From the NCBI RefSeq assembly GCF_002845985.1, contig NZ_PDFK01000001.1:868001-932000 (forward strand): a DNA stretch of 64,000 nucleotides. Reading direction: 5' to 3'. Below are positions 4,749-42,894 of the stretch, in pieces. A model generated the notes under the pieces. The model was not told the DNA's origin. It did no database searches and worked only from the letters and a program-made list of their open reading frames with translations. Position numbers and translations under genes: made by a program. Source of the DNA: Lysinibacillus fusiformis (GTDB lineage Bacteria > Bacillota > Bacilli > Bacillales_A > Planococcaceae). Within the stretch, counting starts at the first letter, position 1, and each line of letters opens with the position of its first letter.

Positions 4749-5480
4749 TTAGTTTAATTCTGTATAAAATCGGCAACGATCCCCTCTTACAATCGAAATA
4801 CAGAATTCAACTGGTTTTCCTGAAGTATCAAACGCAGTTCGTTCTAGTAATAAAGCTGGTTTTCCAGCATCTGTTTTCAATAAAGGCGCTTCATCTTTAT
4901 TAATAAGGACTGGTTCAAAAGCTTCTCGCGCCCTTACAACAATAATGTTAAACCGTTGTTCTAATAAGCTGTATAAAGAGGAAGTAGTTACTTCTTTTAA
5001 TATTTCACTATCCTTAATAATACTTAAAGGTAAAAATGATGATTCCAAAATAATAGGCTCATTATCTGCAAATCGTAAACGCTTCATTTCTACTACTTGC
5101 TCATTTTCCTCTAATGCTAAATTGGACCTAACCTTTGTTGAGGGATAAACCTTCTGTATTTCTAGCACTTCATCTCTTGGATTTAAACCTTTTTCTTGAA
5201 TCATGCGACTAAAACTATAAAATCCTCCAAGCGATTGTTCAAGTCTAGGTTTCGAAACGAAGGTCCCTTTCCCTTGTATACGATATAATTTCTCTTCCTT
5301 TACTAATTCCTCAATTGCCTTTTTTACTGTATTTCGACTAACTCGAAACATTTCCATTAATTGGTTTTCTGAGTCAATTTTATCTCCTGGCTTCCATTCA
5401 CCTGATTGTATTTTTGCAAATAATATTTGTTTCAATTGGTGATACAATGGGATTACACTGGATTGATCTAACAAATGCAT
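4749..5480 (-). CDS. GntR-family regulator with UTRA effector domain (NagR/YvoA-like)
   Basis: The protein has 243 residues. Residues 1-75 form a GntR winged helix (PLYHQLKQILFAKI, ENQLMEMFRVSRNTVKKAIEEL, IQGKGTFVSKP). The rest is a UTRA/HutC ligand domain that in this family binds a sugar phosphate such as GlcN-6-P or GlcNAc-6-P. It lies inside the amino-sugar cluster, between nagA and the aldolase gene, so local control is the natural reading. TGGTATA motifs occur in front of this gene (5515-5521, minus strand) and of the aldolase (4706-4722). By analogy it would repress until a phosphorylated amino sugar binds. Confidence 0.88.
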   Translation of the reverse strand: MHLLDQSSVIPLYHQLKQILFAKIQSGEWKPGDKIDSENQLMEMFRVSRNTVKKAIEELVKEEKLYRIQGKGTFVSKPRLEQSLGGFYSFSRMIQEKGLNPRDEVLEIQKVYPSTKVRSNLALEENEQVVEMKRLRFADNEPIILESSFLPLSIIKDSEILKEVTTSSLYSLLEQRFNIIVVRAREAFEPVLINKDEAPLLKTDAGKPALLLERTAFDTSGKPVEFCISIVRGDRCRFYTELN

Positions 5481-5510
5481 CTTTTTTCCTTCCTTCTCTA
5501 GGTTTTGTAA

Positions 5511-5530
5511 TCAATATACCATCTATATAA
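5511..5530. promoter_or_regulatory. Second TGGTATA-type candidate operator, before the gntR gene
   Basis: On the minus strand TATATAGATGGTATATTG lies about 30-50 bases before the regulator start. It shares TGGTATA and the TATAGAT block with the site before the aldolase, as expected for autoregulation. Motif match only. Confidence 0.4.
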
Positions 5531-5549
5531 AAAGATGCCTATTGATATA

Positions 5550-6728
5550 TCAACCCTTCTCAAAGGCAAGATTCCCTAAGCAAAAAGTTTTCTCCACTTC
5601 TCCTTCTTCATTCAACCAAACAACATCTGCATCTTTTCCTAGTGCAATAGACCCTTTTCGCTTATCGAACCCTAAATGTACTGCTTGATTCAAAGAAACA
5701 AGACGCATTTGTTCAACGATTGAAAGTGTAAGCCACTCTTCTATGTTTTTCCTTGCTGTATTCATATTCAACACACTTCCAGCTAAGGATCCTGTTTTAC
5801 GTTGAATACATTGATTATTGATTACTTCTACTTCATTTCCACCTAAACTATACATACCATCTGGCATCCCCTTTGCACGTATACCATCTGTAATGACTAA
5901 TAAACGATCTAAGCCCGTCATTTTGTAAACCATTGGTAGTAAATCTTTATGGAAATGAATATTATCTGGAATTACCTCAACATACACATCTTCAGCTAAA
6001 AGCACTGCTCCAACAACACCTGGATCACGATGATGAAGTCCACTCATACCATTAAATAGATGTGTTGCATGAGTGATACCAGCTTTTAATGCATGGATTG
6101 CCGTATGATAGTCAGCGTCAGAATGACCAATAGATGCAATAATTCCCTTACTAGTCAATTCTTTTAGTAATTCGAAATTGCTATCTTCCTCAGGTGCAAA
6201 TGTGACAAGACGAATGGATTGTTGAGACTTATCGTATAAATCATTAAATTGTTGAACATTTGGCTTTAAGATATACTCTTCTGGTTGGGCTCCTTTTTTT
6301 GCCCCATTAATAAATGGACCTTCTAAATGAATTCCTAACATTTCAGCTACTGCTGTAGGTTGGTTTTTATAATAAGAATAAAGTTCCTCAATAGTAGCTT
6401 CAATCTCTGACATAGGAGCTGTCATCGTTGTTGCTAAAAAAGCTGTTATGCCTTCACTAGCTAAATACTTCGCCATTTTCGAATAACAAATTTGATCAGC
6501 ATCCATAAAATCATGTCCTAAAGCACCATGTACATGGATATCGATCATTCCAGGGATTATATAACCTTTTAGCTGACAGTCTATTACATTCTCTATCGAA
6601 GCTAGTGAAGGACAATTATCCATTTGATCAATTACTGTAATTTTCCCTCCCGACATTTCTAGAAATCCGTTATTTAAAATTTGATTTTCCAAAACGATAT
6701 TAGCATTAATAATCCATATTTTATTCAT
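5550..6728 (-). CDS. nagA: N-acetylglucosamine-6-phosphate deacetylase (NagA/AgaA family)
   Basis: This is a 392-residue amidohydrolase. It has the metal-binding HVH in IPGMIDIHVHGALGHDF near residue 60, LEGPFINGAKKGA near 136, GHSDADYHTAIHALKAG near 200, HLFNGMSGLHHRDPG near 225 and the catalytic Asp in VITDGIRAKGMPDG near 278. These are the standard NagA motifs. It removes acetate from an N-acetylhexosamine-6-phosphate in the cytosol and supplies the SIS-domain enzyme. AgaA (GalNAc-specific) and NagA cannot be told apart here. The start overlaps the end of the DUF624 gene by 4 bases, so the two are in one transcript. Confidence 0.92.
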   Translation of the reverse strand: MNKIWIINANIVLENQILNNGFLEMSGGKITVIDQMDNCPSLASIENVIDCQLKGYIIPGMIDIHVHGALGHDFMDADQICYSKMAKYLASEGITAFLATTMTAPMSEIEATIEELYSYYKNQPTAVAEMLGIHLEGPFINGAKKGAQPEEYILKPNVQQFNDLYDKSQQSIRLVTFAPEEDSNFELLKELTSKGIIASIGHSDADYHTAIHALKAGITHATHLFNGMSGLHHRDPGVVGAVLLAEDVYVEVIPDNIHFHKDLLPMVYKMTGLDRLLVITDGIRAKGMPDGMYSLGGNEVEVINNQCIQRKTGSLAGSVLNMNTARKNIEEWLTLSIVEQMRLVSLNQAVHLGFDKRKGSIALGKDADVVWLNEEGEVEKTFCLGNLAFEKG

Positions 6729-7396
6729 GAGGTTATCCCTCCACCAGAATACTGTGGTAGATTCGTTTGTTCCTCTGCTTCAATTTCTTTCTTAAATATA
6801 TGAGATGACATCCAAGTTAAAAATAATGCAGTTAAGCTAACACCGAAGAATGGTAATAAGCCAGGAATCCAACTATAAATTTTATATAGTATGGCAAGCC
6901 CTATAATGCTGCTAATCATCTGTAATGGATACGCAATACTAAATATGATGGAAGCCGCAAAGTAACGTAATGATGGTAAATTATAATGGGCATATAGTTG
7001 AAATATATTCACTAGAATAATACCGAATAGCATACTAATTGTGATGAACATTGTTAGCAAAAGTAAACCAAGTATGCCATTAAATGTTATAATAATCTGA
7101 AAATTAATGATTAAAAAGTAGCCTAAACCCAGTAAGATAATACCTATTTTATTAGATGGAATAAATTCGACTTTATATGTATTCCAATATATTTTTACTA
7201 ATCTTTTTAAGTCATCTTCTCCTAGTAATCTTTTACGTAAAGTAGTAAACATTGCAACAGTTGCTGGGGATAGTCCAAATAAAACAAGTCCAAGCAAAGT
7301 TAAGCCTGTCCATAATATCTGTAGCACTGCTAACAATGTGATCCACTCTACAATCCAGTATAATTTACTTTTCCACCCTTCAAATTCCAAGTACAT
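6725..7396 (-). CDS. DUF624 (YesL-like) membrane protein
   Basis: This small integral membrane protein (about 223 residues) has five or so hydrophobic segments and the YesL-type opening in which LTLLGLVLFGLSPATVAMFTTLRK follows an amphipathic N-terminus. DUF624 proteins are usually found beside LplABC/YesOPQ oligosaccharide importers, as here. Their role is unproven; an accessory function in import or its control is usually assumed. The ribosome binding site GGGAGG lies immediately before the ATG at 7396. A TTG six bases further in has better spacing and may be the true start. Confidence 0.8.
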   Translation of the reverse strand: MYLEFEGWKSKLYWIVEWITLLAVLQILWTGLTLLGLVLFGLSPATVAMFTTLRKRLLGEDDLKRLVKIYWNTYKVEFIPSNKIGIILLGLGYFLIINFQIIITFNGILGLLLLTMFITISMLFGIILVNIFQLYAHYNLPSLRYFAASIIFSIAYPLQMISSIIGLAILYKIYSWIPGLLPFFGVSLTALFLTWMSSHIFKKEIEAEEQTNLPQYSGGGITS

Positions 7397-7507
7397 TACC
7401 TCCCTACGATTCACATACAACTATATATCGTGCATGCTTCATTTTAAGTGTGAAGAGTTGGTTTCTCTAACTAGACACGTCATTAGAAAGAAGGTTTATA
7501 GAATGAG

Positions 7508-7554
7508 GGTCACATAAGCTTGGAATCAAAAGTGACTATTTAGCTTATGTGACC
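7508..7554. terminator. 12-bp perfect inverted repeat between binding-protein gene and yesL-like gene
   Basis: GGTCACATAAGC (7508-7519) and its exact complement (7543-7554) flank a 23-base loop. The plus-strand exit is T-rich but the minus-strand exit, the direction of the operon, is not. It may be a partial terminator or an mRNA-stabilising hairpin that lets the upstream binding-protein gene accumulate more transcript than the genes after it. Confidence 0.5.
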
Positions 7555-7593
7555 TTCTCCTTCTTATTAAGCTTGAAGGAAATCTAAATCTAA

Positions 7594-9210
7594 TTATTTT
7601 GATCGGTCATATGCCCCTTGTGCTACTTCCAAATATTCTTGTAAGCCCATCTTCTCAATTGTTTTCTTATAATCATTCCATTTATCGAAGCTTTCTTTAC
7701 CTGTAATAAAACTTGCCGTCATTTCATTTACATACGTTTGAATGTCTGTTAAAACGGCTGACACTCGATCATTTTCTTCTACTGTGTAATTCAATCCTGG
7801 AATAATTTCATCATCTTTCAATGCATATGGCATTACTTGGTTAGCATTGTTAATAGAATTTTCCTTAGCCTCTGCACCTTGGAAGTACTTTTTCGTTACA
7901 ATCCCAGGGTAATAGCCGCCTGGCCATGTTAAATAATCACTTATCGCTTGATCTAAGTTTTTGCCATCTGGGTTATTCGTAATATTTTCTACATATTGAA
8001 TAGTACCATCCGCATTTTCTTCGTAAGTGACACCTTCAAAGCCCATAAAGAACATTTTAGCTCCTTCATCACCATATAAATGATCAATCCAACGAACCAT
8101 CGCTTCAGGATTTTTCGCTTTATCTGTTAAAACAAACATGCCTAAATTACCAAGACCATTAGTCATCGCAGTAAATTGTCTATCCCCATTCGGTCCTTCT
8201 AAAACTTGTGCACCAGTATAACCATCTATTTTATATAACTCTTTCGGGTCTACTTCACTAAGCATACCAAACGTCCCTTTAGCTGCTTCTGCCGCAAATT
8301 TCTGAGGCTCTGTCGTAAATACATCTTTATTGATTAAACCTTCTTTGTAAAGTTTATTTAAAAACTCAAGTAATTGTTTATATTCGTCTGTCGTTGGCAC
8401 GAAACGGAATTCTTCAGTTCCTTTTTTAAAGTCTAAATTCAGATTCATCGTTCCTTGTTTATTCAAGCCAAATGAACCTCTTAAATAAGAAATAATTTGT
8501 TCAATACCATAGCCAGTTCCCCAGCCTTGTTCATCTTGTAAACCATTGCCATTAGGATCATTCTCTTTAAATGCTTTCAGCACGTTATACAAGTCTTCTG
8601 TTGTTTCAGGTGATTGTAAACCTAGATTATCAAGCCATTTCTGGTTAATCCATGGAGCTCCGACGCGAAGTGATGAAAACTTCGGATCGTAAATTGTTGG
8701 GAAGCCATAAATATTGCCATCTGCCATCGTCACACCTTGTTTTACAGATGGGTATTCTTCTAATAGTTTTTTAAAATTTGGAGCATATTGATCAATATAA
8801 TCATTCAACGGTAAGAATACACCTTGTTGTCCATACTTGATTAAATCAGTTTTTGAAAATGCTGATGCAAAGAATATTTCTGGATAATTTCCAGCAGCTA
8901 AAAGTAAGTTCTTTTTGTCCGCTAATACTTCAGTCTGAACAGTTGTCCAATTAATATGGACGTTAGACATTTTCTCGTATTCTTCCCATAACATTAGATT
9001 GTTCCAATCTTGTGATGCAAAAAACTTTGCTGCAAAACCGTCTACTTCAATTTTCTCTTTTGTAATAGGCATATCCGTTGCATTCAAATGATCTAGATTA
9101 CCGCTTTTTTCTCCACCATTATCTTTATTATCTGAACATGCTCCTAGCAAACTTGCAGCTAACATCAGGCTTGTTACTAAACCGTAAACACGCTTTTTTT
9201 TCACTTTCAT
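7594..9210 (-). CDS. Extracellular sugar-binding lipoprotein (LplA-like, family 1)
   Basis: A 538-residue solute-binding protein with a lipoprotein signal peptide: basic start MKVKKKR, hydrophobic stretch, lipobox LLGAC at about residue 21-25. It belongs to the large LplA/YtcQ group, of about 500-560 residues, that binds oligosaccharides for CUT1 importers. It is followed downstream by a hairpin and preceded in the transcript by both permease genes. The ligand cannot be read directly. The neighbours suggest an amino-sugar-containing glycan. Confidence 0.88.
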   Translation of the reverse strand: MKVKKKRVYGLVTSLMLAASLLGACSDNKDNGGEKSGNLDHLNATDMPITKEKIEVDGFAAKFFASQDWNNLMLWEEYEKMSNVHINWTTVQTEVLADKKNLLLAAGNYPEIFFASAFSKTDLIKYGQQGVFLPLNDYIDQYAPNFKKLLEEYPSVKQGVTMADGNIYGFPTIYDPKFSSLRVGAPWINQKWLDNLGLQSPETTEDLYNVLKAFKENDPNGNGLQDEQGWGTGYGIEQIISYLRGSFGLNKQGTMNLNLDFKKGTEEFRFVPTTDEYKQLLEFLNKLYKEGLINKDVFTTEPQKFAAEAAKGTFGMLSEVDPKELYKIDGYTGAQVLEGPNGDRQFTAMTNGLGNLGMFVLTDKAKNPEAMVRWIDHLYGDEGAKMFFMGFEGVTYEENADGTIQYVENITNNPDGKNLDQAISDYLTWPGGYYPGIVTKKYFQGAEAKENSINNANQVMPYALKDDEIIPGLNYTVEENDRVSAVLTDIQTYVNEMTASFITGKESFDKWNDYKKTIEKMGLQEYLEVAQGAYDRSK

Positions 9211-9229
9211 TTAAAATCGCCCCTATTCT

Positions 9230-10108
9230 TTAACCTTTTAATGAACCAATCATGACACCTTTTACAAAATATCTTTGTAAGAATGGATAAAGCATTAACA
9301 TTGGTAGGTTAGCAACGATTAAAACTGCGTACTTTAACCCTTCAACGCTAAGTTTTTGAGCTAAAAAGCTTTCTGACGTCGCTTTAATCATATCGTCAGC
9401 TTGTCCTTGAATTAATATTTGCCTCAGAATAAGTTGTAGTGGAAACTTATCTTGGTCTTGCAAGTAAATCAATGCTTGGAAATAAGAGTTCCAATGTCCT
9501 ACAGCGTAAAATAAAACCATGACTGCCATAACTGGTAATGATAGTGGTAGAACAATACTCCACAAAATACGGAAGTTCCCTGCGCCATCAATCATGGCAG
9601 ATTCCTCTAGCTCATATGGAATGGACTGGAAAAATGTCCGCATAATAATGATGTTCCATACAGCTACCGCGTTCGGAATAATCATGACCCAAAAAGTATT
9701 AATCATGCCCAAATCACGAATTAATAAATATGTAGGAATTAGTCCTCCACTGAAAAACATGGTGAAAACCATAAATGCCATAATAAAGCCTTTTCCTTTT
9801 AAATGTCTACGAGAAAGAGGGTAGGCTGCACAAATTGTCATAACTATATTTAACAATGTTCCAAAGAATGTGTACTTCAATGTGTTGATAAATCCATTCA
9901 TAATATCTGGATTTTGGAATACCTTTTGGTAGGCCTCCACCGTAAATTCCTTTGGCCATAGCCATATATCCCCCGAGATTACGTACTCCGGATTACTAAG
10001 GGAAGCACTTAAAACAAAAATAAGTGGATACAAAACAACAACTGCTACAATTGTTAAAAAAATATAATTAAAGAGTGTAAACGCACGATCGCCCTTTGAT
10101 TCTTTCAT
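9230..10108 (-). CDS. Carbohydrate ABC permease, MalG/LplC type
   Basis: A 292-residue inner-membrane permease with six predicted spans (first around residues 14-40). The EAA loop ESAMIDGAGNFRILWSIVLPLSLP sits near residue 185, and the C-terminus FLQRYFVKGVMIGSLKG is typical of the MalG family. The loop docks onto the ATPase. The ATG at 10108 follows AAAGGAGAG at good spacing, so I prefer it to the longer frame starting 33 bases upstream. It pairs with the LplB-type permease encoded immediately before it in the operon. Confidence 0.9.
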   Translation of the reverse strand: MKESKGDRAFTLFNYIFLTIVAVVVLYPLIFVLSASLSNPEYVISGDIWLWPKEFTVEAYQKVFQNPDIMNGFINTLKYTFFGTLLNIVMTICAAYPLSRRHLKGKGFIMAFMVFTMFFSGGLIPTYLLIRDLGMINTFWVMIIPNAVAVWNIIIMRTFFQSIPYELEESAMIDGAGNFRILWSIVLPLSLPVMAVMVLFYAVGHWNSYFQALIYLQDQDKFPLQLILRQILIQGQADDMIKATSESFLAQKLSVEGLKYAVLIVANLPMLMLYPFLQRYFVKGVMIGSLKG

Positions 10109-10121
10109 TTCAATCTCTCCT

Positions 10122-11114
10122 TTACCATAAACTTGTATCACTCACTTTTTTAGCTATTTTATTAACCATAATAAGGAGGATAAAATTAATGATAGAGTTG
10201 AATAAGCCAACAGCTGCTGAAAAGCTATATTGCGCTTCTAAAATCCCGCTACGATAAACGAAAGTTGATATAACATCCGATGCCGACATATTTAAATCAT
10301 TTTGCATTAAAAATACCTTCTCAAATCCAATTGCCATGACAGATCCTACATTTAAGATAAATAAAATGACAATAGTCGGCATAATCGCAGGAATATTAAT
10401 ATGAATAATTCTTTGGAATTTTGATGCCCCATCTATCATTGCCGCCTCATGCTGTGCTGGATCTACGGCTGCTAAAGCGGCAATATATATGATGGAGCTC
10501 CATCCCATCGTTTGCCAAACATCAGATAGTACGTATATTGATTTAAACCATGCTGGTTCTGAAATAAAATCAATTGGTGTACCCCCAAATAACAAAATTA
10601 TTTGATTAATCATCCCATCAGACTTTAAGAATAGTAACAGCATACCCACAACGACTACTGTTGATAGAAAATGTGGGGCATAAATAACTGTCTGTACAAA
10701 TTTTTTAAAACGAAGACTTTTCACTTCATTTAATAGCAATGCAATAATGATTGGTATTGGGAAAGATATAAGTAAAGTGAATACACCAATCCCTATCGTA
10801 TTTTTTATTAAGCGCCAAAAATAATAACTATCAAAAAAACGTTCGAAATGCTTAAACCCTACCCACGGACTTCCCATAATTCCCTTTGTAGCAATGAAAT
10901 CCTTAAAGGCAATTTGCACCCCATATAGTGGATAGTAATGAAAAACCAAAAAGTAAAGTATGACAGGAGCTAGTAATAAATAAAGCTCCCAATTTTTTTT
11001 GATAGATTTTTTCCACTCTACCAAGTGATTTTTCTTTACTTTTGATTGCTTTTTGAAAAAACGTTGTGTTTTAGATGTTTTGTCCTCAACAGTTGTTTTA
11101 TCTAAAAGCGTCAT
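10122..11114 (-). CDS. Carbohydrate ABC permease, MalF/LplB type
   Basis: A 330-residue permease with a charged cytosolic N-terminus of about 45 residues and six predicted membrane spans. The opening YPLYGVQIAFKDF is a family hallmark. The EAA loop HEAAMIDGASKFQRIIHINIP sits near residue 225. It forms the channel with the LplC-type partner. The start follows GGGGGTG. The spacing to neighbours (13 and 18 bases) supports one transcript with the oxidoreductase upstream. Confidence 0.9.
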   Translation of the reverse strand: MTLLDKTTVEDKTSKTQRFFKKQSKVKKNHLVEWKKSIKKNWELYLLLAPVILYFLVFHYYPLYGVQIAFKDFIATKGIMGSPWVGFKHFERFFDSYYFWRLIKNTIGIGVFTLLISFPIPIIIALLLNEVKSLRFKKFVQTVIYAPHFLSTVVVVGMLLLFLKSDGMINQIILLFGGTPIDFISEPAWFKSIYVLSDVWQTMGWSSIIYIAALAAVDPAQHEAAMIDGASKFQRIIHINIPAIMPTIVILFILNVGSVMAIGFEKVFLMQNDLNMSASDVISTFVYRSGILEAQYSFSAAVGLFNSIINFILLIMVNKIAKKVSDTSLW

Positions 11115-11132
11115 AATTACACCCCCAATTTA

Positions 11133-12284
11133 TCAATGTTGCAGAATGGTAGATTCCTGTATGATCTCCATAACCTTGCCTCCGTTACGAATAGACTCTG
11201 TTGCTGCGCAGCCCACCGCAACACTCATTCGTCCTGCAAATGGCGTTGTTAAAGGTTCTTTATTGTAGAGAATGAGTTCTACAAAATCTTGGGCAATTTT
11301 TGGATCAGCCCCACCATGGCTTCCTTCCTCAGGCTTCATTTCGTAAACAACATCACTAAGTTCTTCCCAAGAATTTGATTTTCGTGTTTTTAAATAAATT
11401 TTATTATTGATATCATCATTTTCGATACGCCCTTTCGTACCTATGAATGTATAATTTCGTGAATAGTCTGGTGTGAAGTGACATTGTAAGTAAGAAGCTT
11501 TTATGCCACCTTCCAATTCCATAATGACCATATTATTATCCTCTACATCAATTTCTTCACGGAATGCACATTCCGTAAATGTATGTTCAACATATTCTGG
11601 ACAAGTTTTTTTCTGGTCACATGTTGGACACGTTAACGTATTTGGCTGATTTCCACCATAATAATCTAAGCTACCAAATGCAGAGACTTTCGTTGCATAT
11701 TTCCCAGAAATCCAATGAATGACATCTAAATCATGTGAGCCTTTTTGAAGTAGCAGAGATGTTGTATTTTTTGAATTACCATGCCAATCGTGGTAGTAGA
11801 AGTAACCGCCGAATCCAACAAAATGACGTACCCATATAGCCTTTAATTCTCCAATAGCTCCTGAGTCAATTAAGCCTTTCATCGTTTGATACATACTCAT
11901 ATAACGCATATTAAAGCCAACCATTAGATGCTTTCCTGACTTTTTCCATGCATCTAATATTCGATCGCACCCTTCCACAGTAATGGCTAATGGTTTTTCA
12001 GCATATACATGCTTGCCTGCACTTAAGCAAGTAATAATATGTTCTTCATGCAGATAATCTGGTGATAAAACCGCAATTGCGTCGATATCATCCCTTGTTA
12101 ATAATTCCTTATAATCCTTTGTTAAAAATAATGGTGTATCGAATTTTTCCTGAAATTTTTCTAAACGTTCTTGAGAGATATCAGCTAATGCTACTATTTC
12201 TGATGCTCCAGTAGGTTTATGCCAGTATTGTGCTAAGCCCCCTCTTAAACCGGCTCCAATTACACCAATTCGTATTTTTTTCAT
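11133..12284 (-). CDS. Gfo/Idh/MocA-family NAD(P)-dependent sugar oxidoreductase
   Basis: A 383-residue protein with an N-terminal Rossmann fold (GVIGAGLRGGLA at residues 7-18), the family motif AEKPLA near residue 95, and a C-terminal alpha/beta domain. It carries a cysteine group, CPTCDQKKTC near residue 220 plus a further Cys about 13 residues on, as in a subgroup of these proteins, possibly binding metal. It is the first gene of the amino-sugar/LplBCA transcript and presumably oxidises or isomerises the imported sugar. Family 109 glycosidases share this fold, but I see no specific evidence for glycosidase activity. Confidence 0.85.
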   Translation of the reverse strand: MKKIRIGVIGAGLRGGLAQYWHKPTGASEIVALADISQERLEKFQEKFDTPLFLTKDYKELLTRDDIDAIAVLSPDYLHEEHIITCLSAGKHVYAEKPLAITVEGCDRILDAWKKSGKHLMVGFNMRYMSMYQTMKGLIDSGAIGELKAIWVRHFVGFGGYFYYHDWHGNSKNTTSLLLQKGSHDLDVIHWISGKYATKVSAFGSLDYYGGNQPNTLTCPTCDQKKTCPEYVEHTFTECAFREEIDVEDNNMVIMELEGGIKASYLQCHFTPDYSRNYTFIGTKGRIENDDINNKIYLKTRKSNSWEELSDVVYEMKPEEGSHGGADPKIAQDFVELILYNKEPLTTPFAGRMSVAVGCAATESIRNGGKVMEIIQESTILQH

Positions 12285-15058: not shown

Positions 15059-16798
15059 TCACATTGTCACAGCTACCCAATGGTTAGGAGAAACCTCTAC
15101 TAGCTGACTATTTTCTACTTCATAGCGTACTTTTTTATCTTCGATATATTCGGCATCATTATATTTCTTCTTCTCTATTGCAGGATCTGGAATAGGTATT
15201 GAGCGTAATAATGCACGGGTATAAGGATGCTGTGGATTAGTATATAGTTCTTCACTTTCTGCCAATTCAACAATTTTCCCACCATACATGACCGCAACAC
15301 GATCACTAATATGTTTCACCATTGACAGATCATGGGCAATAAATAAATATGTTAAACCAAGTTTTTGCTGTAATTCCTTTAATAAATCTACAATCTGCTT
15401 TTGAATAGAAACATCCAGTGCTGATAAAGGTTCATCACAAACAATAAAGTTTGGCTCGACTGCTAATGCTCTAGCAATCCCAATTCGCTGACGTTGCCCC
15501 CCTGAAAATTCATGAGGATAACGCATAGCATGTTCTTTCCTTAAACCAACAAGCTCAAGCAATTCCTCTACTCGTAGTCGTCTCTCTTCATGTGTCTTCA
15601 CTAGACCATGAATATCAAGAGCTTCCCCGATAATATCTAAGATTTTTTTTCGAGGATTTAACGATGAATAAGGATCTTGGAAAATAATTTGCATATGACG
15701 ACGCATTGCCTTTAACTGCTTTTTCGTTAGTCTTGTTACGGGTATGCCTTGATATAAAACCTCTCCATTTGTAGGCTGATGAAGCTGAAGAATCGTTCGA
15801 CCTGTAGTAGATTTTCCTGAGCCTGATTCACCAACCAAGCCCAATGTTTCACCAGGATATATATGGAAGGATAAATCATTGACTGCTTTTAGCGTTTGAC
15901 CACGACCTAGTGAAAATTCCTTCGACAGATGTGTCACCTCAATCAATGGCTTATGACGATTGATACCTGACTGAATATTGGCTATCTCTTTTGGCTGCTT
16001 TTTTTCATGCAGCTTTGGTAGCGCATTCAATAATTTTTGGGTATATGGATGCTGAGCATTCGCAAAAATCTCTTCCGTTGTGCCCTGTTCAACAATTTCT
16101 CCTTCTTTCATGACGATGATACGATCACACATACCTGCAACCACGCCTAAGTCATGTGTAATTAAAACAATAGACGTCCCCATTTTTTTCTGCATATCAC
16201 GCATCAATTTCAGTATTTGCGCTTGAATCGTTACATCAAGTGCTGTAGTTGGCTCATCCGCAATAAGCAGGGACGGGTTACAAGCAAGTGCCATGGCAAT
16301 CATCACACGTTGGCGCATACCACCTGAGAATTCGTGAGGGTATTGTCGATATCTTTCTTCAGCATCCTGAATACCAACCAGTTTTAATAATTCAATTGTT
16401 TGTTGGTAGGCCTCTGTTTTTGACATGGCCTGATGCTTGATTAAACTTTCAGCCACTTGATCTCCTATTCGAATGGTAGGGTTTGTTGATGTCATCGGAT
16501 CCTGAAAGATCATACTAATATCTTGTCCACGAATCCCTTCCATTTGTTTTTCACTTAATTCCGTGAGTTCTTGGCCTTTAAACACAATAGTGCCAGATTT
16601 CAGAAATGAAGGCGGCGATGGTAATAAACGCATAATGGAACGAGCCGTTACACTTTTTCCACTTCCAGACTCTCCTACAATTCCGAGTGTTTCACCTTTA
16701 TTTAGATGGAAGCTAACGTCCTTAACAGCTTCGAATTCTGTCTCCCCTGTGATAAAGGACACGCGAAGATTATTGATTTCTAAAAGCTTTTCATTCAT
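15059..16798 (-). CDS. Peptide/nickel ABC transporter ATPase, fused OppD-OppF
   Basis: A 579-residue fusion of two complete ABC domains. The first has Walker [13 protein letters not shown] near residue 40, signature FSGGMRQRV and Walker [13 protein letters not shown]. The second has Walker [13 protein letters not shown] near residue 325, signature [10 protein letters not shown] and [12 protein letters not shown]. In most Opp/Dpp systems these are two genes. It is transcribed away from the permease and binding-protein genes, with a 121-base shared promoter region. The ATG at 16798 follows AAAGGATG with good spacing, so I prefer it to the ATG three codons upstream. Confidence 0.9.
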
Positions 16799-16919
16799 TC
16801 GACCCATCCTTTTTAAAATTTGTGATTGACTTACTTACAAGTATAATCCATACTTTACAATACTGATAGGAATTATACAATATGATGCTGAATATTTTAT
16901 TTACGTTTGGAGGAAATGC

Positions 16920-18350
16920 ATGGTTACTTCAAAAAATCATTTAAAACCTAAGGAATTTATTTTCTTTTCTACGGTTTATCAAAAACTAATGCATCAAAAG
17001 CCTTACCATTTGATTCTTTTTTTCTTAAGTATTTTAGTTCATCCCTTTACATACTTTATCTATCGGAAAAGAAATCATTCAAACAATTATGATCAGGCTT
17101 TTGCATTACGTAGTCAGTACTACCTAGAGAAGGCTTTGGTTGCTCACTGGCAAAAGGACTTTGAACAACAAGAAATAGCAAAAGCTACCTTTTTTAAAGA
17201 GACTGTATTACAGTCACAAATTCAAACAACAGCCAAGCAATTAGCTCAAAATAAACTACAACAGCAAGTGGATCAAGATTTACAAAAAGAGGGCATACAA
17301 CAACTAACGTATAACCAATTTTTTAATCAGCTACTAACAAACAAACGCTTTATCGCTCTTACCTTTCTACCAGCTTTTTTATTTTATGTAGTACTTATCT
17401 TATTTGCGAATCCGTTCCTACAATTTATTATTGAACGTCTTTTACAAAGCTTCATTGTCATTGTTGGTGTAGCTACATTGGTGTTTACTATTTTGTATTT
17501 ATCACCATTTGACCCAGCAAGAAACCTACTCGGAGTTGAAGCAACACCCGAGCAGATTGCGAATTTTAATCGTATTCACGGTTTAGATCAGCCTTATTTA
17601 TCGCAGCTTTGGAACGCACTATCTGGCCTATTTACATTTGATTTAGGAACATCCTTTGCAGGTAAAGAAGATATTACCCACAGCATTGCGACAAAATTTC
17701 CTGTCACACTTGAAATAGCCGTATTGTCATTGTTAATGGCTATCGCCATTGCTATTCCAGTCGGTATTATTTCAGCTGTTCGTCCAAATTCATATTTGGA
17801 TTATACATTTATGTTCATTGCTTTAATCGGTTTATCCATCCCAAGCTTTTGGCAAGGTTTAATTTTTATTTTAACGTTTGCTTTAAAGCTTCAATGGTTT
17901 CCAGCGACCTATAATCCTCACAATTGGTTATCGCTCATCATGCCCATTATCGTCTTGGGAACATCCATTACAGCATCCATCGCTAGGATGACAAGGTCGA
18001 GTATGCTTGAGGTGATTCATGAGGATTACATTATTACAGCAAAAGCAAAAGGCTTAAATGAATTTAAAGTCATTTCAAAACATGCCATTCGTAATGCCAT
18101 GATTCCAATTATTACGGTGATTGGACTTCTTTTTGGGGGTATGTTGGGAGGCGCATCTGTAACAGAAAAGGTATTCAACATTAGTGGGATTGGTAGCTAT
18201 ATCGTCGATAAACAATTTATCCCTGATATTCCGGCCATTCTTGGAGGCGTTGTTTATATTGCCATTACTATTTCAATTGTCAATTTATTGATTGATATCA
18301 TGTATGCCTTTTTTGATCCACGCATTCGCTCGAAAATGAAGAAGTCTTAA
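16920..18350 (+). CDS. OppB/DppB-type permease with a long N-terminal extension
   Basis: A 476-residue protein; ordinary OppB/DppB is about 310-340. The permease proper begins near residue 163 (LQFIIERLLQSFIVIVGVATLVF). It contains the typical IHGLDQP and the EAA-type loop VIHEDYIITAKAKGLNEF near residue 362. The first 160 residues are extra: hydrophobic spans near 27-47 and 143-165 with a Gln-rich helical region between. A GGAGG lies just before the ATG. Peptide specificity is inferred from family only. The same kind of extension on the next gene suggests the two extensions work together. Confidence 0.88.
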   Translation: MVTSKNHLKPKEFIFFSTVYQKLMHQKPYHLILFFLSILVHPFTYFIYRKRNHSNNYDQAFALRSQYYLEKALVAHWQKDFEQQEIAKATFFKETVLQSQIQTTAKQLAQNKLQQQVDQDLQKEGIQQLTYNQFFNQLLTNKRFIALTFLPAFLFYVVLILFANPFLQFIIERLLQSFIVIVGVATLVFTILYLSPFDPARNLLGVEATPEQIANFNRIHGLDQPYLSQLWNALSGLFTFDLGTSFAGKEDITHSIATKFPVTLEIAVLSLLMAIAIAIPVGIISAVRPNSYLDYTFMFIALIGLSIPSFWQGLIFILTFALKLQWFPATYNPHNWLSLIMPIIVLGTSITASIARMTRSSMLEVIHEDYIITAKAKGLNEFKVISKHAIRNAMIPIITVIGLLFGGMLGGASVTEKVFNISGIGSYIVDKQFIPDIPAILGGVVYIAITISIVNLLIDIMYAFFDPRIRSKMKKS

Positions 18351-18363
18351 AGGAGGATCACCT

Positions 18364-19860
18364 GTGAAAAACATCTTACATGTCAAACTACTCTTGAAGA
18401 TTACACAGGAATATGTCAATTCTCATTTCACTTTTGTCTTTTCCTTATTGTTTTCTTTCTTGTTTCTAGCCTATAGCTATAATTTTTCTACCAATAGCTG
18501 GCGACCAGTTATTATACTCTTTTTTGTTATTTATGCTATTACCACGGCATATGTTGCTTTCATCAATTTACGAATTAAAAAGGACTTAGCAAAGCACGGT
18601 GACATTCAAAAAAGCACTCGAGTGCTGGGCTATCCATTGTTAATCACTATATTGTCAGGCAATATTTTTTCAACATCCTTTGCATTTATGCTTGTGTCGA
18701 AAAGAAAATCTGCAGAATATACTTTTGCAGCCTATGCCTTTATTACACAATTATTCATCATTGGTATTGCAGCATTGAATATATTTAAACCATATGTAAC
18801 GGATACCTTTTTACTGGCGATGGGTGTTTTCTTAGTACTAGCGCTATTTTATATCGTGATGGCCATTTTATGTACGAAATATGTGACAGCTACTGAGGCA
18901 CCTAAATGGATGATTATTCCCGGCGTTTTATTACTATTTGCAACTTTCACTGGTAATCTATTTGCGACATTACTAGGCTATAGCCTGATTCAAAAGGCTC
19001 GAAAGGCAAATCCGTCTTCTATAGAAAAGTGGCAAAAAATATGGGAAAAGATTTTACGTAATACGATGGCTGTATTCGGCTTATTCTTCATTATTTTCAT
19101 GTTCTCATTGTCCGTCACAAGCTCTTGGACTTTTGACTATGATTTTGCTACAGAAAATAACTATGGTGCGTTACTGCAAACACCATCATTGGACTATCCG
19201 CTAGGCACAGATAATTACGGACGAGATTTATTTTCTCGCATTGTATTTGGTGCACAAATATCGTTAATCGTCGGATTTTTCTCAACGATTATTCCAGCAG
19301 TTGTGGGAGGGACATTAGGCGCTTTGTCAGGCTATTATGGAAAATCCACTGATAATATCATCATGCGAAGCCTTGATGTTTTATATGCTATCCCTGGCAT
19401 TTTGTTAGCTATTGCTATTATCGCTGCCTTTGGTGCTAATACAGTGAACCTCATTATTGCGCTGAGTGTTGGGGCAATTCCAACCTATGCTCGTACAATG
19501 CGGGCTAATGTTATGCAGCTTGCTAATTTTGAATTTGTGGAATCAGCTAGAGCTTTAGGTGCATCTGATGCTGCTATTATTTTCAAGCATATTGTTCCCA
19601 ATTCATTAGCACCAATGATTGTGAAAGCAACCTTAACGATTGGGGGAGCTGTTATTTCAACAAGTAGTTTAAGTTTTTTAGGGCTTGGTATTGAGCCACA
19701 TATTCCCGAATGGGGCAATATTTTAAAAGTTGGTAGTACGTACCTGGAGACACATTCATATGTCGCGATTTTCCCAGGTCTTTGTATTATGCTTCTTGTC
19801 CTCTCCTTTAACTTCTTAGGAGATGGTTTACGAGATGCTTTAGATCCAAAAACAAATTAA
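18364..19860 (+). CDS. OppC/DppC-type permease with an extra N-terminal membrane domain
   Basis: A 498-residue protein; ordinary OppC/DppC is about 280-310. The usual OppC start (NTMAVFGLFFIIFMF) is at about residue 230. It is followed by the family marker LGTDNYGRDLFSRIV near 280 and the EAA-type loop ALGASDAAIIFKHIVPN near 400. The first 225 residues hold about six additional hydrophobic segments with no similarity I recognise. The GTG start follows AAAGGAGG. The gene is 13 bases after oppB and abuts the binding-protein gene. Confidence 0.88.
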   Translation: MKNILHVKLLLKITQEYVNSHFTFVFSLLFSFLFLAYSYNFSTNSWRPVIILFFVIYAITTAYVAFINLRIKKDLAKHGDIQKSTRVLGYPLLITILSGNIFSTSFAFMLVSKRKSAEYTFAAYAFITQLFIIGIAALNIFKPYVTDTFLLAMGVFLVLALFYIVMAILCTKYVTATEAPKWMIIPGVLLLFATFTGNLFATLLGYSLIQKARKANPSSIEKWQKIWEKILRNTMAVFGLFFIIFMFSLSVTSSWTFDYDFATENNYGALLQTPSLDYPLGTDNYGRDLFSRIVFGAQISLIVGFFSTIIPAVVGGTLGALSGYYGKSTDNIIMRSLDVLYAIPGILLAIAIIAAFGANTVNLIIALSVGAIPTYARTMRANVMQLANFEFVESARALGASDAAIIFKHIVPNSLAPMIVKATLTIGGAVISTSSLSFLGLGIEPHIPEWGNILKVGSTYLETHSYVAIFPGLCIMLLVLSFNFLGDGLRDALDPKTN

Positions 19861-19872
19861 TTGGAGGTAACT

Positions 19873-21684
19873 ATGAAGAAATTACTTGTATTTTTATTCG
19901 TTGCAGTACTAGCTTTAGCTGGCTGTGTACAAACAAAAACTGACGTAGAAGGCAGTAAAGATTCAAAAGATAATAACAAGAGCAATGGCAAAGTGGCCAT
20001 TGAAGTATTAGGAATGGCCTCTGCTGAAGAAGATATGAATATTGTACGCGACCAATTGGTGAAAAATGGTTTTGATGTAAAACTAAATATTCAACCAGAT
20101 TACGGTTCATTCTCTGCTCAAAAAGAAGCGGGTAACTATGATCTTGCTCTTTCAAGCTGGACGACAGTAACTGGGAACCCTGACTATGCTGTACGTGGTC
20201 TATTTAAAACAGGCGGTGACTACAGTGTTGTTGCAGATTCAAAATTAGATGCACTAATCGATGAAGCAAGCACATTGACTGGTGAAGAAGCAGCAGCTAA
20301 ATATAAAGATTTAGAGCAATTACTAGTATTCGATCAAGCTTATATTGCGCCTTTATATATTTCCAATAAATATCAAGGGATCTACTCTGAATTAGTAAAT
20401 CCTAAAACGGTCCTTTTACCAAAATCTCGTGCACAGGTTTGGGAAAAAATTGAATTTAATGATGCGGCTAAGAATGCAACAGAACCTTTAATCTTACACC
20501 AAACAATCAACTCCCTTACTTCACTTGACCCAATCAAAGGGAATGATGGTTCCATCAATACATTAAACACGAATATGTACGTTCGTCTTGTTAACTTAAC
20601 AGATACAGATGAAGTTGTTTCAGATGGTTCATTATCTTATAACCATGTAATGGCTGAAGGTAATCAAGAATATTACTTCATTTTACGTGATGATATCCAC
20701 TTTGCAGCTGTGAAAGATGGTGCAGCAATTGATACAGGTGAATTAGTGTCAGCTGAAGATGTTGTCTTCTCATTAAATCGTGCAAAAGATGCTAATTCAG
20801 TACCAGATCATCGTACTTATAGCATTCATGAAAATATAGAAACAGTGGAAATCGTTTCTGATTTAGCTGAATTACAAAGCAAAAAAGTAGCAGGCTCTGA
20901 GCAATCAGTGTTAGATGCCTTATCACAAAACCTACCTGCTTCAATAGCACAATTAACAAAGGAAAAAGGTGCTGTTCATAATGCAGCAGGTGCATACCAA
21001 GTTGTTAAAATTACAACGCCAACTCCATTCCCACAAGTATTAAATTATTTAGCACACCAATCTGGTGGTATCGTATCTGAAAAACAAGTAACAAGCATTA
21101 ATACGTATGACGTGGCTAGCTATGATCCTGATAAAGACATTGCCTATGGTGATCAAGCTACTATAACGGAAGGTTCAGCAACATTTAACAATCAGCTATA
21201 TGCAAGTGGTCCTTACATTTTAGTGAAGAAAAATGATTATGAAGCACAATTCGTGAAAAACCCTGCTTACCGTGCAGGTAGCGAATATGAACCAAAAATC
21301 GCCAAAATTAATGTTCGATTTATCTCTGATGTTGATAGTGCACTATCTGCATTACGTAATGGTGAAATACATGTTCTTCAAACAGTTCCAGAAACGAAGT
21401 TGGATATTGTGAAATCAGACGCTAAATTAACATTAAATACGGCAGATAGTAATGCTGTGTCTTACTTACAAATGAATACGTCTGGACGTGCAGTTTCTGA
21501 TTCAGCAGATTTACGTAAAGCAATCCTATACTCCATTAACCAAGACGAATTCATTAGCTATTACCAAGGCAATAAAAAACCAGCTGTATCCACAGTATCT
21601 CCATTAATCGATACTGGTTTAAAACTGGAGGCAGATAGCGAGAAAGTAAAAGAATTTATAAAAGCATATAACGATAATAAGTAA
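19873..21684 (+). CDS. Family 5 (OppA/DppA-like) peptide-binding lipoprotein, apparently circularly permuted
   Basis: A 603-residue lipoprotein; the lipobox LALAGC puts the acylated Cys at residue 18. In OppA/DppA proteins the order is N-lobe start, central lobe, the RKAILYSINQDEF-type segment, and last a C-terminal segment with a strand-helix pattern and YDLALSSW-like motif. Here that C-terminal segment comes first, at residues about 41-195 (DMNIVRDQLVKNGFDVKL, NYDLALSSW, FDQAYIAPLYIS). The N-lobe start (EPLILHQTINSLTSLDP) appears only at about 204. The protein ends at 603, right after the RKAILYSINQDEF segment (from about 549), where the missing segment would normally continue. The fold would therefore be intact but permuted. 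The ATG at 19873 follows TTGGAGGT. It should bind oligopeptides for the extended OppBC. Confidence 0.88.
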   Translation: MKKLLVFLFVAVLALAGCVQTKTDVEGSKDSKDNNKSNGKVAIEVLGMASAEEDMNIVRDQLVKNGFDVKLNIQPDYGSFSAQKEAGNYDLALSSWTTVTGNPDYAVRGLFKTGGDYSVVADSKLDALIDEASTLTGEEAAAKYKDLEQLLVFDQAYIAPLYISNKYQGIYSELVNPKTVLLPKSRAQVWEKIEFNDAAKNATEPLILHQTINSLTSLDPIKGNDGSINTLNTNMYVRLVNLTDTDEVVSDGSLSYNHVMAEGNQEYYFILRDDIHFAAVKDGAAIDTGELVSAEDVVFSLNRAKDANSVPDHRTYSIHENIETVEIVSDLAELQSKKVAGSEQSVLDALSQNLPASIAQLTKEKGAVHNAAGAYQVVKITTPTPFPQVLNYLAHQSGGIVSEKQVTSINTYDVASYDPDKDIAYGDQATITEGSATFNNQLYASGPYILVKKNDYEAQFVKNPAYRAGSEYEPKIAKINVRFISDVDSALSALRNGEIHVLQTVPETKLDIVKSDAKLTLNTADSNAVSYLQMNTSGRAVSDSADLRKAILYSINQDEFISYYQGNKKPAVSTVSPLIDTGLKLEADSEKVKEFIKAYNDNK

Positions 21685-21693
21685 TACTAATTT

Positions 21694-21721
21694 GAGCCTT
21701 CTCAAAATTTGAGAAGGCTCA
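21694..21721 (+). terminator. Terminator hairpin, left duplicate flanking repeat copy B
   Basis: A GAGCCTTCTCAAA/TTTGAGAAGGCTC stem 10 bases after the binding-protein stop. Its T-run is missing. A nearly identical hairpin with a T-run lies at 22222-22246, beyond the repeat element. Confidence 0.8.
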
Positions 21722-21726
21722 CTTAG

Positions 21727-22214
21727 TGTTGAAAAACAAAACAGTCAATTAGAAGGTAAAAATGGATTTCCGTTGCAGGCTACTTGCTTTCCTGTGGGCG
21801 AGCGCCCCGAGCCGCTTCCTCCGCTATCGCTCCGTTTAGAGGCTCGCCTGTCTCGTTATCCCACGGGAGTCAAGTAGCCTCCACTCCAACCTACAAAAGT
21901 ATTACCTTTTTAGCAAAGGTTTTCAAATAAGGCGAAGGTCTTCACTACTCTTTATGGAGAGGTGTTGTCACACATCACTTCCCCACATTGAAAATAAGAG
22001 CTTATTCCCTCTAAAAATAATGGGCTATTTAATCGCTATATTACTATGAAAAAAAGTAAAGACACTTTGCAGAATGGTTGATTGGAGTGGAGCGAGCGTA
22101 AGTGAGTGAAGCGGCTCATCGGACGCCCCTTGGAAAGGGCGCTGGCGGAACGGAAATCAACCTCTTACCTTGCAAATTTGCTTTTTCTGCCTTTGACATG
22201 ATCTTTTTTCAACA
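21727..22214. repeat. Palindromic repeat element, copy B
   Basis: About 488 bp in the same orientation as copy A, with TGTTGAAAAA and TTTTTTCAACA ends, and arm 1 (GGATTTCCGTTGCAGGC...) and arm 2 (GGTTGATTGGAGTGGAGC...). Part of arm 2 is shorter than in copy A. It lies between oppA-like and yutG genes, which are convergent. Confidence 0.9.
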
Positions 22215-22221
22215 ACATGAA

Positions 22222-22246
22222 AGCCTTCTCAAAATTGAGAAGGCTC
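22222..22246. terminator. Terminator hairpin, right duplicate flanking repeat copy B
   Basis: AGCCTTCTCAAAATTGAG... stem followed by TTTTT on the plus strand. It differs from the left duplicate by one T in the loop and one base before the stem. Confidence 0.8.
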
Positions 22247-22269
22247 ATTTTTAATAGTAGAAACTCATT

Positions 22270-35029: not shown

Positions 35030-35225
35030 AAGTATATCAATAACGCTTCGGCTTAATTGCCGCTAACGATGTGTCTAGATTTTTCCGAGCAGAAAAGTAG
35101 AAGTTAGCCTAAGAAAGTCACGTCCTGTGACAACGGTTAATGTACAGATCTCTTTATAAACCTGTGACATCTGCCGGAGGGCTCTGTGGCAACACTTTCA
35201 TTGCCACAGGCGTAGCACTTTTTGA
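35030..35225 (+). ncRNA. Structured leader upstream of the truncated haemoglobin-spxH pair, class unknown
   Basis: About 190 bases with several pairings: GCTAAC (near 35066) with GTTAGC (near 35104); GTCAC/GTGAC around 35117-35131; and CTGTGGCAA (35184-35192) with TTGCCACAG (35201-35209), extendable by GCT/AGC and followed by a T5 run (35219-35223). CCTGTGACA occurs twice (about 35123 and 35161), so alternative pairing is possible. A perfect ATTCAGCA/TGCTGAAT hairpin follows near 35240-35270. This looks like an attenuator-type leader for yjbI-spxH. I could not match it to a riboswitch class I know. Confidence 0.4.
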
Positions 35226-37062: not shown

Positions 37063-37106
37063 AAAGAAGCGCCTCTATCCTCGACCGATAGAGACGCTTC
37101 TTTTTC
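37063..37106. terminator. Strong bidirectional terminator with no obvious gene
   Basis: AAAGAAGCGcCTCTATC ... GATAGAGaCGCTTCTTT, A-run left and T-run right. It lies just right of repeat copy C and differs from the hairpin on its left. I cannot name the gene it terminates. Confidence 0.8.
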
Positions 37107-37160
37107 ACAAAGGGGATGGGAGAAATGTTCACGTTCAAACAAAGGGGTGTATGTTTGTTT

Positions 37161-37176
37161 TGTGATTTATTTCACA
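37161..37176. promoter_or_regulatory. Perfect Fnr/Crp-type palindrome TGTGA-N6-TCACA
   Basis: TGTGATTTATTTCACA agrees exactly with the Bacillus Fnr consensus. A Bacillus-type fnr gene lies at 49.7 kb. No convincing gene follows on either strand; the next is pepF, whose 3' end faces this site. The palindrome also lies inside a 24-codon frame (37124-37198) that I do not accept as a gene. Confidence 0.5.
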
Positions 37177-42588: not shown

Positions 42589-42627
42589 TCTTTGCAATCA
42601 AATCAATTTGAATAATTTAAATTGAGA

Positions 42628-42894
42628 AAAACGCTGACGAAGAGTAGTACATATGTTCATTTCACGTTTAGAGAGTCTGTGGTTGCTGCAAACAGATCGT
42701 GGAGGCATATGGAATGGACTTCCGAGTTAGCTTTGTGAACGCTATTAGAAGCTATTAGCAGAGCTCGTCCCTTCACGTTACGAAGCTGAGTGGCCTTTTA
42801 GGCAAGCTGGGTGGTACCGCGGATTCAAAACATCATTCGTCCCTTCATTAGAAAAAATCTAATGAGGACGCATGATGTTTTTTTGTCTTTATCG
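42628..42894 (+). ncRNA. T-box leader of trpS (tryptophan specifier)
   Basis: Stem I carries AGAGAG, GGTTGCTGCAAACAGA and a specifier region GGAATGGACTTCC with TGG (Trp) at 42715-42717. The T-box sequence GGGTGGTACCGCGG lies around 42810-42822. A strong terminator hairpin (42828-42893; AAACATCAT ... ATGATGTTT plus seven T) follows. Uncharged tRNA-Trp would bind the specifier and T-box and allow read-through into trpS. Confidence 0.95.

Follow-up and report, generated by a model that had tools for sequence, protein, structure and literature searches.

A probable natural circular permutant among family 5 binding lipoproteins, encoded in a GisABCD-type importer locus of Lysinibacillus fusiformis

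The window considered here is a 64,000-nt stretch of the Lysinibacillus fusiformis genome (assembly GCF_002845985.1, contig NZ_PDFK01000001.1, positions 868,001–932,000). It includes a small transporter locus with a gisA-like ATPase gene, divergent from two gisB- and gisC-like permease genes and a gisD-like gene at 19873–21684 (Table 1), whose product is a substrate-binding lipoprotein of family 5 (PF00496, SBP_bac_5; 136.2 bits against a curated cut-off of 32.4) with its parts in a rotated order. The gene is a single unbroken frame from an ATG at 19873 to a stop codon ending at 21684, with an alternative TTG start at 19861 (607 aa). Residue numbers below are those of the protein counted from this TTG (P0001); numbers counted from the ATG are lower by four. 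The protein opens with a lipobox read from the sequence as LALAGC, with Cys22 as the expected lipid-bearing residue, and 70 of 70 rows of the family have a lipobox when a loose pattern is applied.

Table 1. Features of the gis-like locus in the window.
Feature	Coordinates	Strand	Basis
gisA-like ATPase, two ATP-binding cassette (ABC) ATPase halves fused, divergent	15059..16807	-	open reading frame list, locus comparison
intergenic region between divergent genes, sigma-70-like matches	16808..16919		promoter scan
gisB-like permease, N-terminal extension (~1-165) before usual OppB/DppB-type permease	16920..18350	+	Pfam, comparisons
gisC-like permease, hydrophobic N-terminal extension (~1-215) before usual OppC-type permease	18364..19860	+	Pfam, comparisons
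gisD-like gene, putative circularly permuted family 5 (SBP_bac_5) substrate-binding lipoprotein	19873..21684	+	603 aa from ATG
lipoprotein signal peptide, lipobox LAGC, Cys22 of P0001	19873..19926	+	sequence
first half, equivalent to DppA ~371 to C terminus (second part of lobe 2 and last domain I strands)	19987..20457	+	hhalign, alignment
join of ancestral C terminus to ancestral mature N terminus, ~NDAAKNA, residues 200-206	20458..20478	+	alignment, rotation scan
second half, equivalent to DppA mature start to ~370, ending at helix EKVKEFIKAYNDNK	20479..21681	+	Pfam, alignment, hhalign
terminator-like stem-loop, 13 pairs, directly after gisD-like gene	21693..21721	+ (other strand scored too)	hairpin scan

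The rotated order is visible with several kinds of profile. The best SBP_bac_5 stretch places profile positions 13–253 (of 368) at residues 265–585, and the end of the profile, positions 298–366, matches upstream of that stretch (28.5 bits in a genome-wide scan, below the family cut-off). The genome's other 11 family 5 proteins each have one collinear profile stretch, reaching position 348 or beyond. In a phmmer search against solved structures, residues 281–334, 443–577, and 43–174 align with positions 76–130, 171–301, and 340–474 of 5isu (Lmo0135); the middle piece is strong (34 bits) and the other two, at about 6 bits each, are weak taken singly. When the front segment (19981–20466) was searched alone, as had been proposed in a preliminary description of this stretch, its best matches lay in the C-terminal third of five family 5 chains (5u4o, two of MppA, and two of HbpA; E 0.0004 to 0.06).

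Profile–profile alignment with hhalign agrees. In natural order, residues 221–605 align with template positions 49–353 (E 2.7e-33) and residues 46–180 with positions 357–497 (E 1.1e-12), so that the two matches are swapped and abut on the template without overlapping; after rotation of the query they merge into a single match to positions 49–497 (E 4.4e-46). Each family 5 segment occurs once in the protein, and the claim of the preliminary description that all DppA/OppA-type parts are present once, rotated, and in one uninterrupted frame is borne out. Every eighth rotation of the mature protein was scanned with a profile built from 27 canonical proteins. The natural start gave a best single-domain score of 127.5 bits, and starts at residues 183–215, which is the linker region, raised it to about 173 bits.

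A controlled comparison was made across the family with a hidden Markov model (HMM) built from the 11 canonical paralogues of the genome. The family rows were scored both as they stand and after rotation, and the canonical proteins, treated in the same two ways, served as controls. There were 59 family rows representing 58 distinct proteins, the window protein having been entered twice, and a row was scored as rotated if any C-lobe segment preceded an N-lobe segment, the controls being judged by the same rule. All 59 family rows were rotated in natural order and none collinear, and all 59 became collinear when rotated in silico; the canonical paralogues were collinear in 11 of 11 cases, and in 0 of 11 after rotation. 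The median best single-domain score of the family rose from 103 to 142 bits on rotation. A rule using the first matched domain alone called just 3 of 59 permuted, with the signal peptide often matched first. Staphylococcal relatives have the rotated order as well (11/11), so that homologues of the same arrangement in related genomes, which the preliminary description had suggested looking for, are found throughout these 59 rows and 11 further proteins.

Three observations count against a circular permutation. The full-sequence HMM score of the window protein is nearly unchanged by rotation (141.7 vs. 143.1 bits), which is to be expected of summed pieces, and the case therefore rests on their order and on the single-stretch score. 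Identity to canonical proteins is low, about 21–30%, so residue-level equivalences are approximate, and the family carries insertions that canonical proteins lack. A different history would have the first ~160 residues as an added domain that folds on its own, a copy of part of a family 5 protein placed ahead of a complete but diverged one. Duplication of just one part would produce a front end like this one, with only the canonical C-terminal part there, and the mature protein is indeed some 80 residues longer than mature DppA (586 vs. 507). The surplus, however, consists of internal insertions and the stretch after the lipid cysteine, and the protein stops at the helix preceding DppA G371, with nothing beyond it. 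The front segment is also the only strong match to template positions 357–497: a weak third hhalign match in natural order (residues 492–574 to positions 395–473, E 1e-4, probability 57%) falls in a query region already taken by the far stronger first match. Given this ending and the abutment of the two main matches at template positions 353/357, the extra domain was rejected as very improbable. An assembly or annotation artefact, in which two neighboring binding-protein genes or a rearranged contig were read as one, had been named in the preliminary description as a possible refutation, but its probability is practically nil, since the same order recurs in many separately assembled genomes at 60–100% identity, and at 40–49% in the Staphylococcaceae.

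By the order of its parts, the protein is a permuted variant rather than a canonical family 5 member, whose segments are collinear. With order-sensitive profile tests and their controls, wide conservation, and contiguous alignment across both joins, the circular permutation first proposed from the sequence is sustained: 19873–21684 most probably encodes a natural circular permutant with the family 5 (cluster C) fold, the binding lipoprotein of a GisABCD-type ABC importer, with a probability put at roughly 0.88.

Alignment with the E. coli proteins places the cut between K370 and G371 of DppA and between residues 375 and 376 of MppA (precursor numbering), in the loop between the DppA helix ending KALLKEAG and the next strand. 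Domain 2 of MppA comprises residues 288–506 (PMC6022919), and the cut is therefore inside lobe 2. In canonical proteins the two termini neighbor each other at domain I strands (PMC10924461); here a linker of about 7–10 residues, by alignment, leads from the old C terminus to the old mature N terminus. All segments of the family 5 fold are represented by a profile match, and the bilobed Venus-flytrap fold is likely to be complete. The new termini would lie in lobe 2, and the lipid anchor should thus leave from lobe 2 rather than lobe 1. At the level of homology, with a cut inside MppA domain 2 as against canonical termini in domain I, this agrees with the earlier suggestion that the anchor has moved to a different point on the fold. 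Lobe 2, bearing the tether, would swing relative to lobe 1 upon ligand binding.

The permeases are also unusual. The gisB- and gisC-like products, at 476 and 498 aa, are longer than usual for the Dpp/Opp type, and in the samples searched their extensions were found only alongside the permuted gene. Among the matches listed for a phylum-wide sample of 398 genomes, GisB-like matches starting before residue 130 occur only in four genomes with the permuted protein. The GisC-like extension is present in 25 of 61 genomes, all 25 of them among the holders of the permuted protein within the order, and the eight genomes of the window's genus without it also lack the permuted protein. Of the stretches around 15 high-scoring permeases from outside the group, 12 contained binding proteins (13 in total, all collinear), and none was seen in the other three. 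The outgroup permeases are 291–329 aa long, except one of 456 aa (L127), where the match excludes the extension. In the staphylococcal loci the GisC-like permease is shorter, with a total length of 387–409 aa. No convincing family was identified for the extensions (the best Pfam match, CATSPERG_C, has E 0.0003 and is below its cut-off), and a search of the gisC-like extension alone gave no solved-structure match. By eye, this extension (18364–19008, ~215 residues) contains similar-looking stretches, SGNIFSTSFAFML and TGNLFATLLGYSL, which suggests an internal repeat. It is conceivable, though unlikely, that a tether on the mobile lobe 2 and both permease extensions coevolved as a dedicated docking arrangement of a kind not seen in other Dpp/Opp importers, making the rotation functional rather than neutral.

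Each half of the gisA-like product matches a separate ATPase of the outgroup operons. The four-gene set with a divergent ATPase was found in 28 of 31 mapped loci, the exceptions being a variant (L090), a disrupted locus (L080, described below), and a fragment (L085). In L090 (G615, 4893–11793) two unfused ATPase genes follow the second permease and precede the binding protein, and all genes are on one strand; in the tree it nests inside the group with fused, divergent ATPases. L085 (G583:C11:82164-82814) is a partial relative covering query residues 387–604 at 64% identity, with no neighboring gis-like permeases within the stretch fetched, and is probably a remnant. Promoter-like matches between 14900 and 22300 were no commoner than in shuffled sequences (22 vs. 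26.9). Beyond the gisD-like gene, the intergenic region 21693–22250 has similar stem-loops (GAGCCTTCTCAAAATTTGAGAAGGCTC type) at its borders and GC-rich inverted segments within, and resembles a small repeat element; a 24-base probe taken from this region had a single occurrence in the window. Elsewhere in the window, Rfam matches include a T-box leader (42625–42847), an RsaE/RoxS small RNA (37063–37175), and a Bacillaceae-1 RNA (35093–35173).

Of 261 genomes from the order, 107 carry a relative of the binding protein (61–100% identity). In the class, 34 genomes out of 398 do, the relative being a fragment in one, and among the Staphylococcaceae 11 out of 91; a phylum-wide sample had relatives in 4 of 398 genomes, all Bacilli. 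Those named include Lysinibacillus, Ureibacillus, Bacillus ndiopicus, and Metabacillus. No relative was seen in the viral contigs searched, and of 26 plasmid records with a match just one, from Metabacillus, carries a full-length relative; a phage or plasmid origin was rejected on these grounds. A quick tree built on the second half sets 33 permuted rows apart as a single group from 27 canonical ones (100 by the SH-like approximate likelihood ratio test, SH-aLRT); with its long canonical branches, this tree supports a single permuted clade and does not identify the canonical sister. A likely origin would be a single tandem duplication of the gene, after which the outer parts and the inner signal peptide were lost, and the rotation would predate either the divergence of the Bacilli families that carry the permuted gene or exchange between them.

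The locus closely resembles a described staphylococcal system. In S. aureus, gisA is divergent from gisBCD-ggt, and GisABCD supports growth on glutathione (GSH) and its disulfide (GSSG) (PMC10355420). The window has the same arrangement, with a fused gisA ATPase (15059–16807, minus strand) divergent from gisB-gisC-gisD (16920–21684, plus strand), and judged by sequence is of GisABCD type. It differs from GisABCD-Ggt in having no adjacent ggt, nor any elsewhere in the genome, and its binding protein is about 39–43% identical to the staphylococcal (g27) versions. By analogy with other cluster C importers, the binding protein would capture the ligand and deliver it to GisB-GisC, with import driven by GisA.

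The S. aureus sequence in the collection is an odd one. Record L080 (strain 196 “plasmid unnamed2”, 3662–13442, linear) has the gis-like genes twice, in inverted arrangement, with the binding protein truncated on both sides, and may be a misassembled piece of chromosome. Within its extent, the protein has the same order as the other staphylococcal homologues: the signal peptide leads into the C-lobe segment, and the beginning of the N-lobe segment follows. Its nearest full-length relatives (88–90% identical over 256 residues) are 591 aa long and fully rotated. The L080 signal peptide of 18 residues and its LSG-C lipobox agree with the row for SAUSA300_0203 (GisD) in a published table, which gives an 18-residue signal, LSG-C, and SBP_bac_5 (PMC5020093; column meanings inferred). 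With the window locus of GisABCD type, and with L080 and its relatives rotated, the rotation should therefore apply to S. aureus GisD too, which by this evidence would itself be a permutant. The main text of two Gis papers (one of them PMC10355420) contains no word that starts with “permut”. PMC10355420 describes complete GisABCD-Ggt sets for S. aureus relatives alone, with near-complete ones in a few bacilli, from a survey that covered only genomes with Ggt; Gis-type transporter loci as such are more widespread in the Bacilli than the complete GisABCD-Ggt system.

The substrate is less clear than the fold. Because S. aureus GisABCD imports GSH and GSSG, and because of a residue change in the expected ligand site, there is about an even chance that the ligand is glutathione, its disulfide, or some other gamma-glutamyl or modified peptide; for the window importer itself, glutathione is plausible by analogy. 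R383 and D436 of DppA contact the dipeptide (PMC12136057). The equivalent of D436 (OppA D445, MppA D439) is V103 in 70 of 70 rows, and that of R383 is E56 in 69 of 70. OppA and MppA do not conserve R383, which leaves loss of the Asp, a residue that both of these keep (GsiB has S412), as the one informative change; this loss fits, weakly, a ligand other than ordinary alpha-peptides. The segment aligning with the D436 region is strongly conserved overall, with W100, T102, V103, G105, P107, and Y109 invariant in 70/70 rows.

Against a glutathione-like ligand, no gamma-glutamyl transpeptidase gene (PF01019) was found in the window genome, and among 26 non-Staphylococcaceae genomes tested PF01019 is present in 18 but beside the locus in none. 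The restriction of the complete published system to the vicinity of S. aureus, in its survey of Ggt genomes, points the same way. The ggt gene directly follows the binding-protein gene in nine of nine g27 genomes tested (of ten holding the gene), and among 36 genomes tested it lies beside the locus only in this staphylococcal group. These importers could instead take up ordinary oligopeptides, a metal chelate, or another modified peptide, with glutathione use confined to staphylococci that gained ggt, and SAUSA300_0203 was in fact once filed under nickel/peptide transport (PMC5020093). The odds for this fall slightly short of even. The strong conservation of the D436-region segment holds across staphylococcal and other members, which fits a shared ligand class. 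Enzymes other than ggt products can also degrade gamma-glutamyl bonds.

Compared with canonical cluster C proteins such as DppA, OppA, MppA, and GsiB, the window protein has all segments of the fold once, an SBP_bac_5 score above cut-off, and permeases and ATPases of Dpp/Opp type, but it is rotated, with termini in lobe 2 by homology and with the D436 and R383 replacements noted above. The E. coli GsiABCD importer is similar in having a large ATPase gene, gsiA (1872 bases), and in that GsiB also lacks the Asp matching DppA D436. The gsiA product is a fusion. GsiABCD differs in that GsiB has canonical order, the permease genes have the usual size (921 and 912 bases), and all the genes are on one strand.

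The nearest precedent is TpMglB-2 (Tp0684), a cluster B binding lipoprotein described in 2016 as circularly permuted, for which a subclass, “cluster Bc,” was proposed; its authors consider that the permuted topology may be an adaptation to membrane anchoring (PMC4990184). Both are natural circular permutants among the binding lipoproteins of ABC importers. TpMglB-2, however, has the type I sugar-binding fold, a cut in the N lobe, and a poor sequence match in the permuted part, whereas the window protein belongs to cluster C and its entire rotation is visible in sequence. Nor, judged by sequence, does it fall within cluster Bc, defined by a type I fold whose C terminus carries the first N-lobe strands: Pfam gives SBP_bac_5 and a sub-threshold lipoprotein motif, and the solved chains matched, as listed by name, are of family 5 (cluster C) type. 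The author of the preliminary description knew of no described example of such a permutation. For family 5 this still holds in the literature searched, since no described cluster C permutant was found among the open-licence papers listed (most subscription journals lie outside these); for binding proteins generally it does not, given TpMglB-2.

Natural permutants that can be recognized from sequence, are conserved across bacterial families, and belong to a characterized transporter are, in our judgment, uncommon. Cluster C would gain a permuted subclass, of which no earlier description was found in the literature searched. The rotation would extend to the glutathione importer already published for S. 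aureus, the binding protein of which appears in PMC5020093 as an ordinary SBP_bac_5; because of the rotated order, domain tools see only part of such a protein. As a set of natural proteins, the permuted and canonical forms would allow a direct comparison of whether the point at which a binding lipoprotein is tethered matters for import.
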